32,858 bases of DNA. It comes from a bacterium. GTDB lineage: Bacteria > Patescibacteriota > Minisyncoccia > UBA6257 > JAGOQP01. Location of the stretch: assembly GCA_021780615.1 (NCBI GenBank), contig JAJXYJ010000019.1, forward strand, positions 1 to 32,858. Direction: 5' to 3'. The first letter of the stretch is position 1, and the number at the start of each line of letters is the position of its first letter. The notes beneath the pieces are model-generated. The model saw nothing but the letters and a program-made list of their open reading frames with translations, made no database searches and was not told where the DNA came from. Both the position numbers and the translations under genes were made by a program. Below, piece by piece: positions 3,372-10,104 of this stretch.

Positions 3372-4322
3372 TCATTTCAAAAGAACCATTTTTTTGACAA
3401 TCCGCTGGGAGCCGGATGTCAAAATATAAAAGTATGTTCCTGACGCAAGGTGAGAAGCGTCAAAGACCACCGTGTGACGGCCTGCAGATTGGTAACCGTC
3501 GACAAGAATGCTTACTTCTTGCCCAAGGGTATTAAAAACGGAGAGTTTAACGTCGCCTGCTTTGGCAACGTCATAGTCAATCCGCGTGGACGGATTGAAG
3601 GGATTGGGGTAGTTCTGGTAGAGATGGAAATTAGCAGGAACAACCGGCATAGGAGGAACGATATCCGCAATGGAATCATCTCCAAAGGTATCCTGATAGA
3701 TCACCTGCCCGTTTTTATAGCATTCGAAATTGTCTACACGGACAACAATCCCGCTATACAAGGAATCCCGAAAGTAGACATCTATGAGAAACCCATACTT
3801 TCCCCATTTTGTTATGGGTCCTGGAGGGTTCGCGAGATATCCCGTCGGGATAGAAAAGTGAACCCATTTTCCATTCAAATATCCGAGAGCAGGAGCAGTT
3901 GACCACCCTGACCCTGAGATGGTGAGATAGGAAAAAGAGGTATCCAAATCCCCATCGACATGGATCAATCTCATATCAACAGAAATGCTGTCGGGAGTGT
4001 TAATGCTGTCCCGCAATGTTTTCAGCCAAATATTCCACAGTTCATAGCGATACGAACCATGATATACGACGGTATCTCCTCCCAAAACAAGAATGCGAGG
4101 ATTTCCATAGAGATGAAAATCCTGAGCCTTGGAGGACTGGAACCCGGAATCAACGACGGATGAGTAAGTTGCCGCCGAATCAATGGCGGGATACCATCCC
4201 CAGATTTTAAATCCGTTCACCGTATCCCACATGGAGGGGTGCGGCGTATTTCCTAAGTTTTGCGCCTGTGCGGCACATAACATAGAAAATAAAATCGCAA
4301 AAAGAATAACAAACTTTTTCAT
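3372..4322 (-). CDS. Secreted protein with a C-terminal T9SS type A sorting domain
   Basis: The product has 316 aa. Residues 1-20 form a clear signal peptide (MKKF..., cleavage near CAAQAQ). Residues about 21-225 are a beta-rich domain with many aromatics and the phrase VRVDNFECYKNGQ, which suggests a jelly-roll or carbohydrate-binding fold; this is inference. The last ~85 residues (about 232-316) are a textbook type IX sorting tail: YQNYPNPFNPST, then DVKLSVFNTLGQEV, SGTYFYIL and a final KKMVLLK. Such tails direct export across the outer membrane and attachment to the surface in Bacteroidota, Ignavibacteria and relatives. CPR bacteria are not known to have that machinery, so horizontal transfer or a reused domain is likely. 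The gene has a strong Shine-Dalgarno sequence (AAGGAGGG, about 4 nt before ATG), its own promoter and its own terminator: a one-gene unit. Confidence 0.9.
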   Translation of the reverse strand: MKKFVILFAILFSMLCAAQAQNLGNTPHPSMWDTVNGFKIWGWYPAIDSAATYSSVVDSGFQSSKAQDFHLYGNPRILVLGGDTVVYHGSYRYELWNIWLKTLRDSINTPDSISVDMRLIHVDGDLDTSFSYLTISGSGWSTAPALGYLNGKWVHFSIPTGYLANPPGPITKWGKYGFLIDVYFRDSLYSGIVVRVDNFECYKNGQVIYQDTFGDDSIADIVPPMPVVPANFHLYQNYPNPFNPSTRIDYDVAKAGDVKLSVFNTLGQEVSILVDGYQSAGRHTVVFDASHLASGTYFYILTSGSQRIVKKMVLLK

Positions 4323-5460: not shown

Positions 5461-6699
5461 TCAATCCTCAAACGGGTTTTCTTTCCCAAATGCCGTGACA
5501 AACATATCGTCCTTTGAGAGATACTTATTTTTTATAGCAACAAATTCATCATAGGAGAAAGAATCAATGACGTGAAACATATCTTCGGGCGTTACCATGC
5601 TTCCTGCAAGCTTTTTATATATCCATAACATACCCACCTCATAATAAGGGTCGTTTAACAGCCGTGCAAATACATTTTTAAATTGCTCTTTAAGTTCGTT
5701 AAAAATATTTTTCACATACAGCTCATCACACGAAGAAATGAGTTCCGGCAACAATGCGAGCACCTTCTTTGGTTCGGTGGTTCCGGCAACAATGCGCATC
5801 AGCGTCACATCTTGATACGGGGTAGCACTAGCGCTCACGGCATATATGAGCCCGCCCTTATGGCGTAATTCCTGTTTAAGGAACGGCGCTTTGCCATACG
5901 TTAATATATTTGCAATAAAACTCAACAATAATGCCTCCCTGACGCCTGCGCGGGGATACAAAAAACTAAAAAATAATTTTGTTTGCACGCGAGGTAACGC
6001 CACGAATGTATGGCCATTTTTTTGTTCAGGAACCGGTTGCATTTCCTCTTCATGCAACTCGCTATTCCACCGCATAAAATATTTTTGAGCCAAAGAAATA
6101 GCTTCCGCGTGAGATATATTTCCCACAAGAACGAGAGTACTCCGCTGAGGAATAATATATTTTTTATAATACGCGCGCAGGCGTTCAACGGTTGCGTGAG
6201 CAATACTTTCTTCGTTTCCCATGGGATTATGGGAAAGCGGATGATCACCGAACACGAAAGCATCTGATTCAGCAAGCATACGGCCGTTGTCATCGTCATA
6301 AAAACGATGAAGTTCTTCAAGAATGATTTTCTTTTCGGTTTCAAGCATCTGCGGATCAAGAAGCGGTGCTACCGCCATATCCGACATGATTTCAAAAAGA
6401 TTTTCAAAACGGTTGCGGACAACCTGCACATGCAGGCGCAGGCTTTCAGAGCTTGTGGTTGCGTTGGAATATGCCCCCGCACGATCAATGACATCCCCCA
6501 GTTGTTGCGGCGATGGCAGTTTTTGTGTTGCTTTAACAAGCATATGCTCCAGTATATGCGCGTATCCCCGCTCATCTGACTGCTCATAACGAGAGCCCGC
6601 TTTTATACACAAAGATGCTGTGACAATATCAGCATTTTTGTCCTCAGCTGTAATAATAGACAGCCCATTTGCAAGTTTTGATTCTTGATATAGCTTCAT
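5461..6699 (-). CDS. M16 family zinc metalloprotease
   Basis: The product has 412 aa from ATG 6699; the upstream in-frame TTG is not needed and conflicts with the -10 box. The inverted zinc motif HxxEH is present as H48-I-L-E51-H52 inside GYAHILEHML. The third zinc ligand is expected at E128 in EKKIILEEL, 76-77 residues later as in the family. The C-terminal half is the second, inactive M16 domain with GGLIYAVSA. The length fits single-domain-pair, MPP-beta/YmxG-like peptidases. No signal peptide is seen, so it probably acts in the cytoplasm or near the membrane on peptides or misfolded proteins. A TATAAT box (6713-6718) is 13 bp before the start. It has no obvious operon partner. Confidence 0.9.
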   Translation of the reverse strand: MKLYQESKLANGLSIITAEDKNADIVTASLCIKAGSRYEQSDERGYAHILEHMLVKATQKLPSPQQLGDVIDRAGAYSNATTSSESLRLHVQVVRNRFENLFEIMSDMAVAPLLDPQMLETEKKIILEELHRFYDDDNGRMLAESDAFVFGDHPLSHNPMGNEESIAHATVERLRAYYKKYIIPQRSTLVLVGNISHAEAISLAQKYFMRWNSELHEEEMQPVPEQKNGHTFVALPRVQTKLFFSFLYPRAGVREALLLSFIANILTYGKAPFLKQELRHKGGLIYAVSASATPYQDVTLMRIVAGTTEPKKVLALLPELISSCDELYVKNIFNELKEQFKNVFARLLNDPYYEVGMLWIYKKLAGSMVTPEDMFHVIDSFSYDEFVAIKNKYLSKDDMFVTAFGKENPFED

Positions 6700-6712
6700 T
6701 ACAGTTACAATT

Positions 6713-6718
6713 ATTATA
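6713..6718 (-). promoter_or_regulatory. -10 box of the M16 protease gene
   Basis: A perfect TATAAT on the minus strand, 13 bp before ATG 6699. No good -35 was seen. It overlaps the stop codon of the ASCH-like remnant. Confidence 0.5.
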
Positions 6719-6809
6719 TCTGATACCAACGTGACTTGATTGATTTTTGTCCGGATAAAATCTTAGGAATGAGCCCCCACGATTTTTTCATGATGGCAAG
6801 GTGGTGCAT
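6714..6809 (-). pseudogene. Truncated ASCH/PUA-like gene remnant, 31 codons
   Basis: ATG 6809 opens a 31-codon frame reading MHHLAIMKKSWGLIPKIL, SGQKSIKSRWYQI, then TAA. From memory this matches the N-terminus of ASCH-domain (PUA-like RNA-binding) proteins common in CPR genomes, where KILSGEKTIESRWY continues into more than 100 further residues. Here the frame stops right after SRWY, so only a 5' stub survives. It lies between the DUF559 cassette (11 bp upstream) and the M16 promoter, which may have replaced the missing part. The family call is from recall, not a search. Confidence 0.5.
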
Positions 6810-6820
6810 GGGAGATAGAT

Positions 6821-7270
6821 TTCCCTCCTCCCCTTAGGATAAGGGGAGGGTGGGAGGGGTTATGTTTTTTTGGTTGCAATATAAAGCATTATACTCTTAC
6901 ACACGCCATCCATATTACTTAAAACATCATTATTCCAAAAACGAAGCACGGAGATGTTGTGCTGCCTCAAAAAAGCAGTGCGCATTATGTCATGAGTATT
7001 ATCTATATGCTGGCTGCCATCAATTTCTATTGCCAATCTCAGCGCGGGACAATAGAAATCAAGAATATAACTGCCAACACTATACTGTCTTAAAAATTTA
7101 AATCCACTCAACTTCTTTCCCCGTATAATATTCCAGATTTTGCGCTCGGCGTCTGTTTGTGAAACCCGCAGGGACCTGCGCCTCAATTTGATCGTTTTGT
7201 CATTATACAAGTAAGGCATAGCCACATATAATAACCCACCCTACCCCTCCCTTATTATAAGGGAGGGAAC
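6821..7270. mobile_element. Candidate DUF559 cassette bounded by inverted GC-rich repeats
   Basis: The left end (6821-6863) and the right end (7231-7270) are imperfect inverted copies: both read TTCCCTCC...inward palindrome...GGGTGGG...GGTTAT toward the gene. Each end is itself a palindrome: CCTCCCCTT/AAGGGGAGG at 6827-6849 and CCTCCCTTA/TAAGGGAGG at about 7247-7268. The stop codon of the endonuclease gene is part of the left repeat, and its likely -10 box is next to the right repeat. No clear target-site duplication was seen. Confidence 0.55.
6860..7219 (-). CDS. DUF559 domain endonuclease-like protein
   Basis: The product has 119 aa from ATG 7219 (an in-frame GTG at 7225 is an alternative). 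It starts with a basic helix, then the family signature: TDAERKIWNIIRGKKLSGFKF, RQYSVGSYILDFYCP, LAIEIDGSQH and ISVLRFWNNDVL. The D...ExD arrangement (DFYCP, EIDG) is the PD-(D/E)xK nuclease core shared with Vsr-type endonucleases. Its role is unknown. Related genes are scattered in many genomes, often near GC-rich repeats, which suggests mobility or repeat-linked DNA processing. A possible TATTAT -10 (7228-7233) is 8 bp upstream, implying a leaderless mRNA. The stop codon TAA lies inside the left inverted repeat. Confidence 0.85.
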   Translation of the reverse strand: MPYLYNDKTIKLRRRSLRVSQTDAERKIWNIIRGKKLSGFKFLRQYSVGSYILDFYCPALRLAIEIDGSQHIDNTHDIMRTAFLRQHNISVLRFWNNDVLSNMDGVCKSIMLYIATKKT

Positions 7271-7431: not shown

Positions 7432-10104
7432 TTATGCATTCTTGCCATGACAATGCTTGTACTTAACCGGCGTGCCATCCGGCTTTTTTGCTCCACACCA
7501 ACACGGATCATTTCTACCCACGTCTTTATATGCAGGATCAACCGCACCCGAAGCAGAACCTCCCGACACCTGTGCAACCACCTGTTGCTGAGCGGCAAGT
7601 TGCGCTTCACTTAACACAAATACATTAGATACTACCCACTGTTGTGCATCATCCAAGAGCGTTTTAAACATATCATAACTTTCGCGCTTGTATTCTACCA
7701 ATGGATCACGTTGACCGTATGCCCGCATACGCACCGCTTCTAAAAGCGCCTCCAAATTTTCCAAATGACTTGTCCAAAACATATCCAATGAAGCAATGAT
7801 ACGTATCCCTGTTTGTGAATCGCTACTGGCTTGAGCAATGGCTTTACGGAGCACATCGGGAAGCGTACCTTCCTCAAGAGCCGTCACATCATCCGCAGAA
7901 AAATCACCATCATGTTTAATGAGTCGTATGCGCGAAAATTCTTGCGCATATCGTGCACCCAAACTTGGTAATGCAGGAGCATCCGCTCCCGCTGTTTCGT
8001 GCGCATGCTCTTCTTGTGTGTGAGCAGCCGAAAGACGCTGTGCATATTGCAACACCATTTCTTCAAGAACATCAACGGTTTTCCCCTGTTCAATCATTTC
8101 CAATATATGTTGCCGTCGTCGATACATTGCTTTCCGTTGACGGTTAAGCACATCATCGTAATCCAGTAAATGTTTACGAGCATCAAAGTTAAGTCCTTCG
8201 ACTTTCTTTTGTGCTTCATCAATAACCTTTTCTACTAATCGTGATTGAATGGGCACCTCATCAGGCAAGTTGAGCGTGGTCATCAACGATTTAACTCGAT
8301 CACCGCCGAATACACGCATCAAATCATCCTCCAATGAAAGGAAAAATTGTGTTTGTCCTGGGTCTCCCTGGCGACCGGCACGGCCACGCAATTGATTGTC
8401 CACGCGCCGAGAATCGTTGCGCTGTGTACCAATGACAAATAATCCACCAGTGGCACGCACTTGTTCACCTTCCAAAGTATCAGGCGGATTACCACCTAAA
8501 ATAATATCCACTCCCCGCCCTGCCATGTTGGTAGCAAGCGTCACGCGCCCCGGGCGCCCTGCCTGCGCGATAATTTCTCCTTCACGTTCATGATTTTTTG
8601 CATTAAGCACTTCATGCATCATACCCTCGTTATTAAATCGCGCGGAAAGTAGTTCGTTTTCATCAATGGACGTCGTGCCGATGAGTACCGGCTGATTGCG
8701 GTGCATACAATCCCGCACCTGTGCCACCAGAGCGGCATATTTTGCATCTTTATTTTTATAAACCAAATCAGGCAAATCTTTTCTTACGCGCGGCTTATCG
8801 GTGGGAATAGTCACTACATTCAATCCATACACCTTATTAAATTCTTCAGATGATGTCTGCGCCGTTCCCGTCATACCACTCACCCGCTCATAGAGCCTAA
8901 AATAATTTTGGATGGTAATCTGTGCAAATGTTTTTGATTCCTGCTGTACCGAAACACCTTCTTTGGCTTCGATGGCTTGATGCAACCCTCCTGAATACCG
9001 TCGGCCATACATCAATCGGCCAGTAAACTCATCAACGATAACAATCTCACCATTTTTAACCACATACTGTTTGTCACGGAAAAAAAGCCCATACGCCTTC
9101 AGCGACTCTTCCAGATAGTGCGCTAAGCGCACATGCTGAGGATCATAGAGATTTTCAATGGAAAGAATTTGTTCAACTTTGGTAATGCCAGGTTCTGTAA
9201 TTCTGACAAACTTTGCTTTTTCATCAACCTCATAATCTTCATCTTTTATCAAACGACTCACCACTGAGGAAAATAATTTATAGTATTGAGCGGCTTCGAC
9301 ATCAGGAGCGGAAATAATGAGCGGCGTGCGCGCTTCATCAATAAGAATACTATCCACTTCATCGATGATGGCGTACGCATGTCCGCGCTGAACTTGTTGC
9401 GCAGTCGCATATGCCAAATTATCACGCAGATAATCAAAACCAAATTCATTATTGGTACCATACACAATATCGGCTTGATACGCTTCGCGGCGAGAAATGG
9501 GTCTTAGAAATTCACGTTTTACCAAAAATCCTCCTTTTTCATCGCGCTCTTTATCAAGCGTCATTGATCCTTGTTCTAAGACTGGTGATTGCGCATCAAT
9601 AACATCACGAGTGTGTGCGGGATCGTATGCATACGCCGCATCATGTATGATGCACGCGGTTGATAATCCCAAAAAATGATAGATCTGCCCCATCCATACC
9701 GCATCACGTTGAGCCAAATAATCATTAACCGTAATAACGTGCACTCCCTTGCCCGTTAATGCATGGGTATATGCGGGAGCGGTTGCGGCGAGCGTTTTTC
9801 CCTCACCGGTGCTCATTTCAACAATTGACCCTTCAAATAGAGCGAGTCCTCCTGCAAGCTGTACATCAAAATGTCGCTGTCCCAATGTACGCCGTGCCGC
9901 TTCACGAACCAACGCAAAGGCCTCGGCGCGCACTTCTGCTACGGGCGCTAATCCGCTTTCGACGCGACTTCGTAACTCAAGACTCCGTGCACGAAGATCG
10001 GCATCGGACAAATCACGAAGTGTTGATTCGTATTCGTTGATCCGCTCAATAATGGGACCGAACGCTTTTAAGGGGGATGGTGAAAAAAGAAATTTTAAAA
10101 ACAT
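7432..10104 (-). CDS. secA: Protein translocase ATPase SecA
   Basis: The product has 890 aa, full length. SecA is the motor that pushes preproteins through the SecYEG channel using ATP. Walker A is STGEGKT at residues 98-104. The DEAD-box-like Walker B is in EVDSILIDEARTPLIIS (about residues 247-263). Further landmarks are TGRLMYGRRYSGGLHQAIEAKE and MTGTA (about 416-420). The second helicase domain includes ATNMAGRGVDI and QLRGRAGRQGD. The C-terminus ends in a zinc-binding SEC-C motif, GRNDPCWCGAK...YKHCHGK, in the extended form seen in CPR SecA. A TATGAT -10 box lies 5 bp before the ATG, so the mRNA is probably leaderless. hpf lies just upstream in the same direction. Many signal-peptide proteins in this window would be its clients. 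Confidence 0.98.
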   Translation of the reverse strand: MFLKFLFSPSPLKAFGPIIERINEYESTLRDLSDADLRARSLELRSRVESGLAPVAEVRAEAFALVREAARRTLGQRHFDVQLAGGLALFEGSIVEMSTGEGKTLAATAPAYTHALTGKGVHVITVNDYLAQRDAVWMGQIYHFLGLSTACIIHDAAYAYDPAHTRDVIDAQSPVLEQGSMTLDKERDEKGGFLVKREFLRPISRREAYQADIVYGTNNEFGFDYLRDNLAYATAQQVQRGHAYAIIDEVDSILIDEARTPLIISAPDVEAAQYYKLFSSVVSRLIKDEDYEVDEKAKFVRITEPGITKVEQILSIENLYDPQHVRLAHYLEESLKAYGLFFRDKQYVVKNGEIVIVDEFTGRLMYGRRYSGGLHQAIEAKEGVSVQQESKTFAQITIQNYFRLYERVSGMTGTAQTSSEEFNKVYGLNVVTIPTDKPRVRKDLPDLVYKNKDAKYAALVAQVRDCMHRNQPVLIGTTSIDENELLSARFNNEGMMHEVLNAKNHEREGEIIAQAGRPGRVTLATNMAGRGVDIILGGNPPDTLEGEQVRATGGLFVIGTQRNDSRRVDNQLRGRAGRQGDPGQTQFFLSLEDDLMRVFGGDRVKSLMTTLNLPDEVPIQSRLVEKVIDEAQKKVEGLNFDARKHLLDYDDVLNRQRKAMYRRRQHILEMIEQGKTVDVLEEMVLQYAQRLSAAHTQEEHAHETAGADAPALPSLGARYAQEFSRIRLIKHDGDFSADDVTALEEGTLPDVLRKAIAQASSDSQTGIRIIASLDMFWTSHLENLEALLEAVRMRAYGQRDPLVEYKRESYDMFKTLLDDAQQWVVSNVFVLSEAQLAAQQQVVAQVSGGSASGAVDPAYKDVGRNDPCWCGAKKPDGTPVKYKHCHGKNA

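Follow-up and report, generated by a model that had tools for sequence, protein, structure and literature searches.

A DUF559 endonuclease gene between hairpin-plus-mirror-tail repeats, a likely copy of a two-part nuclease and repeat system related to E. coli ycjD and BoxC/TM repeats

The cassette, its ends and its enzyme

The window, a stretch of 32,858 nucleotides from a Patescibacteriota genome (contig JAJXYJ010000019.1), carries a gene for a DUF559 (PD-(D/E)XK, Vsr/YcjD-like) endonuclease at 6860–7225 on the minus strand, flanked by genes for an M16 peptidase (5461–6729, minus strand) and SecA (7432–10104, minus strand). Its 121-aa product matches the Pfam profile PF04480 (E=6.7e-33), and translation begins at a GTG codon, with an ATG two codons further on. 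A sequence-only reading of this locus had described a nuclease gene between inverted, GC-rich palindromic repeats, and the description holds: the gene is bracketed by a 38-nt inverted pair (6826–6863 and 7231–7268) that is 76% complementary, with a perfect local palindrome within each member.

Each end consists of a pyrimidine/purine hairpin, a short linker and a G-rich tail that mirrors the purine arm: both tails are that arm read backwards, often with T in place of A. At the 3′ end of the cassette (6826–6863, plus strand), the perfectly palindromic hairpin CCTCCCCTTA-gga-TAAGGGGAGG (6827–6849) is joined through the linker GTG (6850–6852, read from the sequence) to the tail GGAGGGGTTA (6853–6862), with a mirror match of 8/8. 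This tail points into the gene and supplies its stop codon, TAA being the complement of 6860–6862, as had been proposed. At the 5′ end (7231–7268, minus strand), the hairpin CCCTCCCTTA-taa-TAAGGGAGGG (7245–7267), likewise a perfect palindrome, is followed by the linker GTA (7242–7244) and the tail GGGTGGGTTA (7232–7241), which also points into the gene. Both ends therefore display the class II triplex layout of a hairpin plus a mirror tail of its purine arm, each with a score of 16, and folding of both as single-stranded DNA gave z = -2.9 to -4.5 against shuffles.

An Rfam search of the cassette ends returned no RNA family, and neither end holds a terminator-like site. The suggested -10 box beside the right end survives as a TATAAT string in the right hairpin loop (minus strand, about 7259–7254), but a promoter scan gave no minus-strand sigma-70 match there. 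Read directly, the window ends show neither a GTAG nor a CGTC tag beyond the hairpin's 5′ foot; at one end only, the linker GTA and the first G of the tail spell GTAG, in the linker/tail junction.

Across the 611,675-base genome, the pattern CCTCCCN{2,20}GGGAGG occurs only at the two cassette ends, with no occurrence of the reversed control pattern. A looser pattern recovered one more copy, a gene-less solo repeat on contig C16 with the same architecture as the cassette ends, a CCCTCTCTTA arm and a GGGTGAGTTA tail. The system in this genome comprises one DUF559 gene, two ends and one solo repeat. A second DUF559-like domain of the genome lies inside a 1086-aa ORF (G000:C1:20975-21223).

The M16–SecA neighbourhood is not conserved in the relatives compared, whose SecA proteins are about 60–70% identical, and no syntenic relative for the window's own site, hence no empty site there, was found among the relatives searched. 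This divergence and the lack of shared synteny leave no occupied/empty comparison to be made at the window locus. Next to the cassette, the truncated ASCH-like gene of the sequence-only reading may correspond to about 30 residues, MKKSWGLIPKILSGQKSIKSRWYQ, that can be read at 6720–6812 (minus strand) and look like the beginning of an ASCH domain; a Pfam search of them gave no hit. Elsewhere in the window, a C-terminal sorting domain of type IX secretion (PF18962, E=2e-10) is found in a 316-aa protein (3372–4322, minus strand); such a domain would not be expected in a genome of 0.6 Mb, and its presence may be due to transfer or a binning artefact.

The DUF559 protein belongs to the DUF559/YcjD family by its PF04480 profile and its conserved PD-(D/E)XK residues. 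D56, E67, D69, G70, H73, D79 and R82 are invariant among the homologues, which is consistent with a predicted working PD-(D/E)XK site. An AlphaFold2 model (pLDDT 90) matches best the fold of 3hrl, a putative endonuclease-like (DUF559-like) protein also recovered in a sequence search with the family profile (E=2e-36). Next, at a distant 21% identity, comes the catalytic domain of the homing endonuclease I-Bth0305I (PDB 3r3p), a nuclease of related fold that is encoded within a mobile element but serves a mobile intron rather than hairpin repeats. Vsr is a weaker fold match than either. PADLOC hits to DpdF and mREase_II reflect local similarity to the nuclease fold and give no evidence of defence; enterotoxin B subunits, returned by a PDB sequence search at E about 1e-3, are spurious, being weak and short local matches.

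Pairing of DUF559 genes and repeats across phyla

Homologues were fetched by protein similarity alone, and the resulting 80 are those closest to the window protein, so that more distant DUF559 proteins may differ. They come from Patescibacteria, Desulfuromonadales and other Deltaproteobacteria, Nitrospirae, Chloroflexi, alpha-, beta- and gammaproteobacteria and Bacteroidetes. An inward mirror-tailed hairpin lies within 200 bp on at least one side of 94% of the 80 DUF559 genes, as against 7% of 209 control ORFs taken from the same loci, and on both sides of 45% as against 1%; for the upstream side, the figures are 86% and 3–7%. An independent, simpler inverted-repeat score at DUF559 genes gave p=9e-16, and the pairing was also seen by eye at further DUF559 paralogues of the window's phylum. 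Several genomes hold different DUF559 paralogues with different repeat types.

Within the repeats, arm and tail change together. With the tail chosen by a rule blind to the arm, mirror covariation over 64 distinct arm/tail pairs reached z=7.8 (T opposite A counted), beating all 2000 permutations. Furthermore, the more identical two proteins are, the more alike their repeats (Mantel rho 0.39; the highest value among permutations was 0.16).

The association extends to repeats in trans. A generic hairpin pattern, which covers only part of the repeat types, occurred 438 times in 145 genomes of the window's phylum, compared with 25 occurrences of its reversed control. At least three repeats were present in 20 of the 25 genomes with a full-length DUF559 gene versus 9 of the 120 without (Fisher p=2e-13, kinship ignored). 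Within one genus (g53), copies numbered 13 and 51 in two DUF559-positive genomes and 0 in a negative one. The generic pattern was absent from 2 of the 25 DUF559 genomes, and two genomes of the phylum, G107 (34 repeats) and G079 (17 repeats), had no DUF559 match; in DUF559-negative genomes, repeats could stem from loss of the gene, from incomplete genomes or from a different mobiliser. Outside the phylum sample, the CCCCTCTT-type repeat was found in 15 of 17 DUF559 genomes, in up to 31 copies, and another repeat type in 14 of 15 proteobacterial DUF559 genomes, in up to 147 copies, both with a control of 0. In the richest proteobacterial genome (G214), many repeats stand in pairs 83–98 bp apart. 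The loop of the gene-adjacent copy often recurs in solo copies, by hand count GAGAC in 12 of 15 in the Geobacter-like genome G043 and AGA in 15 of 26 in G052. Gene-less copies, which the sequence-only reading had proposed to look for, thus exist elsewhere and track the presence of DUF559.

BoxC repeats, ycjD and occupied or empty sites

BoxC/PIT/TM repeats have been known in E. coli since the 1990s, and to our knowledge neither a mobiliser nor a function is known for them in any of the hundreds of genomes that carry them. They constitute an intrastrand triplex motif, found in E. coli and more than 260 genomes, whose E. coli version folds, as a single strand, into a stable triplex in vitro; its authors reported no mobility gene nearby and described the repeats as unstable sites in E. 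coli (PMC4666352). The repeats at DUF559 genes share with this motif (TM-ECO) the order of pyrimidine arm, loop, purine arm, short linker and mirrored purine tail, the occurrence in inverted pairs and the polymorphism between strains. They differ in being tied to DUF559/YcjD rather than described without a mobility gene, and the window arm and tail sequences are of a different type.

The DUF559 gene of E. coli is ycjD. In K-12, a TM copy, one of 23 (Table 1 of PMC4666352), lies at 1,351,204–1,351,239 between fabI and ycjD, while the 3′ end of ycjD has another copy, which is partial. Most of the ycjD locus is present in 3,333 of 5,426 E. coli genomes. Among 60 evenly spaced genomes, the median number of TM places was 16 in the 37 with ycjD and 3 in the 23 without (p=2e-10), a comparison that is confounded by phylogroup and hence supportive. 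We found no paper in the open-access literature that joins DUF559 or ycjD to BoxC/PIT/TM repeats. At the 3′ region of K-12 ycjD (L123:1821-1965), the TM copy stands between two direct copies of a 39-nt stretch of the ycjD 3′ end; in strain 2017-01-4CC, about 106 bp are missing there, one copy of the direct repeat is left and ycjD is annotated as incomplete.

Empty sites, whose existence the sequence-only reading had left to be checked, were found in E. coli and Sphingomonas. The repeat pairs of hrpB–mrcB and fepB–entC are missing from the orthologous intergenic regions of other E. coli strains, where the flanks on the two sides differ, being diverged or altered. In Sphingomonas (the genus of locus L069), 5 of the 25 loci compared carry a TM-DUF559 cassette of 470–540 bp between a thioesterase gene and lpdA; at most of the others the gap is short (-8 to 102 bp), and unrelated sequence is found at a few. 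No exact insertion boundary or target-site duplication was identified at these E. coli or Sphingomonas loci, which may record gain or loss, in either direction. With solo copies and occupied and empty sites in hand, the ends are not a peculiarity of one locus that lacks empty counterparts.

Weighing the explanations

The pairing of gene and repeat across many phyla, E. coli included, leads us to conclude that the DUF559 nuclease probably spreads or maintains the repeats. Given their linkage, trans association and covariation, the repeats are likely to be the DNA to which the protein is matched. That the nuclease itself drives their spread is a weaker claim, somewhat favoured by analogy and by the presence/absence polymorphism. 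Taken together, the cassette is likely one copy of a widespread two-part system composed of a DUF559 endonuclease and cognate hairpin-plus-mirror-tail repeats of the BoxC/TM type. Counting against it are the repeat-rich genomes without DUF559, the two DUF559 genomes in which the pattern was absent, and a varying layout: most E. coli pairs, like the ends of the gene, have inward tails, whereas the solo units of G043 (L191–L202) have outward tails and a short spacer.

Among the alternatives, DUF559 could act as a caretaker, resolving structures formed by the repeats, or mismatches in them, in the manner of a Vsr-like repair nuclease, while another agent spreads the repeats, which would then persist only where DUF559 is present. 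DUF559 is indeed related to Vsr in sequence (PMC1189080), more weakly in fold, and the Caulobacter DUF559-domain protein VsrA is linked to DNA damage and has a proposed mismatch-repair role alongside a cytosine methylase (PMC12907096), a proposal that also counts against the two-part reading. The reported instability of the E. coli repeats fits the caretaker role as well. We nevertheless regard it as unlikely, since it leaves unexplained both the frequent bracketing of the DUF559 gene by repeats and the loop common to solo and gene-adjacent copies, and no other nuclease or transposase was noticed between the repeats, in the course of an inspection that was not a systematic screen.

Far less probable is a role of the repeats as ordinary terminators of transcription, or as hairpins that regulate the gene, with no part in mobility. 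Hairpins are common at gene ends and one tail supplies the stop codon in the window, but the terminator-free window ends, the excess of inward repeats upstream of DUF559 genes, the repeats found elsewhere in DUF559 genomes and their trans association and empty sites all speak against such a role, as does earlier work on PIT/BoxC, which found neither promoter nor terminator activity (summarised in PMC4666352). It is similarly hard to credit that the repeats are REPs mobilised by a transposase of the RAYT/Y1 (HUH) type, with DUF559 as a passenger. Inverted pairs of palindromes do resemble REP/REPIN layouts, and Y1 genes occur in 16 of the 25 DUF559 genomes of the phylum; they also occur, however, in 50 of the 120 genomes without DUF559, where repeats are rare, and the window ends lack the GTAG or CGTC tag at the hairpin foot. 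Above all, Y1/RAYT does not explain the repeats because Y1_Tnp is absent from the window genome and from 9 of the 25 DUF559 genomes among the 145, which have repeats all the same.

The sequence-only reading had likened the locus to REP/RAYT modules with DUF559 as the nuclease, a comparison now strongly supported by similar ends across phyla and by solo copies in trans; most informative, however, are two features absent from that reading, the tail that forms a mirror repeat and the connection with BoxC/TM repeats. Like a REPtron (RAYT/TnpA-REP with REP/REPIN; PMC2817692, PMC3116915, PMC8266576), the system has a small nuclease gene with inverted palindromic repeats on either side, non-coding copies in trans that are often arranged as inverted pairs (one solo copy in the window genome, many in related systems), and protein–repeat co-evolution. 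Unlike in a REPtron, the nuclease is PD-(D/E)XK (DUF559, PF04480) and not HUH/Y1 (PF01797), a G-rich mirror tail replaces the GTAG tag, and some genomes hold several DUF559 paralogues. The DUF559 pairing thus works like a REPtron yet is not a member, because its nuclease belongs to another family. In our best reading, the DUF559 system is a REP/RAYT-like partnership assembled from unrelated components, namely a PD-(D/E)XK nuclease with triplex-type repeats. More tentatively, this may be a second, non-homologous class of REPtron, in which a restriction-fold DUF559 nuclease recognises intrastrand-triplex DNA and disseminates BoxC/TM repeats, with YcjD as its model member.

In such a partnership, a single-stranded repeat would fold into a hairpin with a third strand, and the DUF559 nuclease would recognise the folded form and cut at or beside it; repair of the break could then copy the repeat unit, lose it or insert it elsewhere. 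The gene would act in trans on many short non-coding copies while usually staying put itself, as is thought for RAYT/TnpA-REP acting on REPs.

BoxC/TM repeats are among the most widespread bacterial repeat types, and the DUF559–BoxC link offers a concrete candidate gene in a model organism together with a testable substrate. If the reading is true, systems of hairpin repeats with a dedicated nuclease would have arisen at least twice, from unrelated enzymes, and a cellular role would be at hand both for DUF559, a domain of "unknown function", and for intrastrand triplex DNA.
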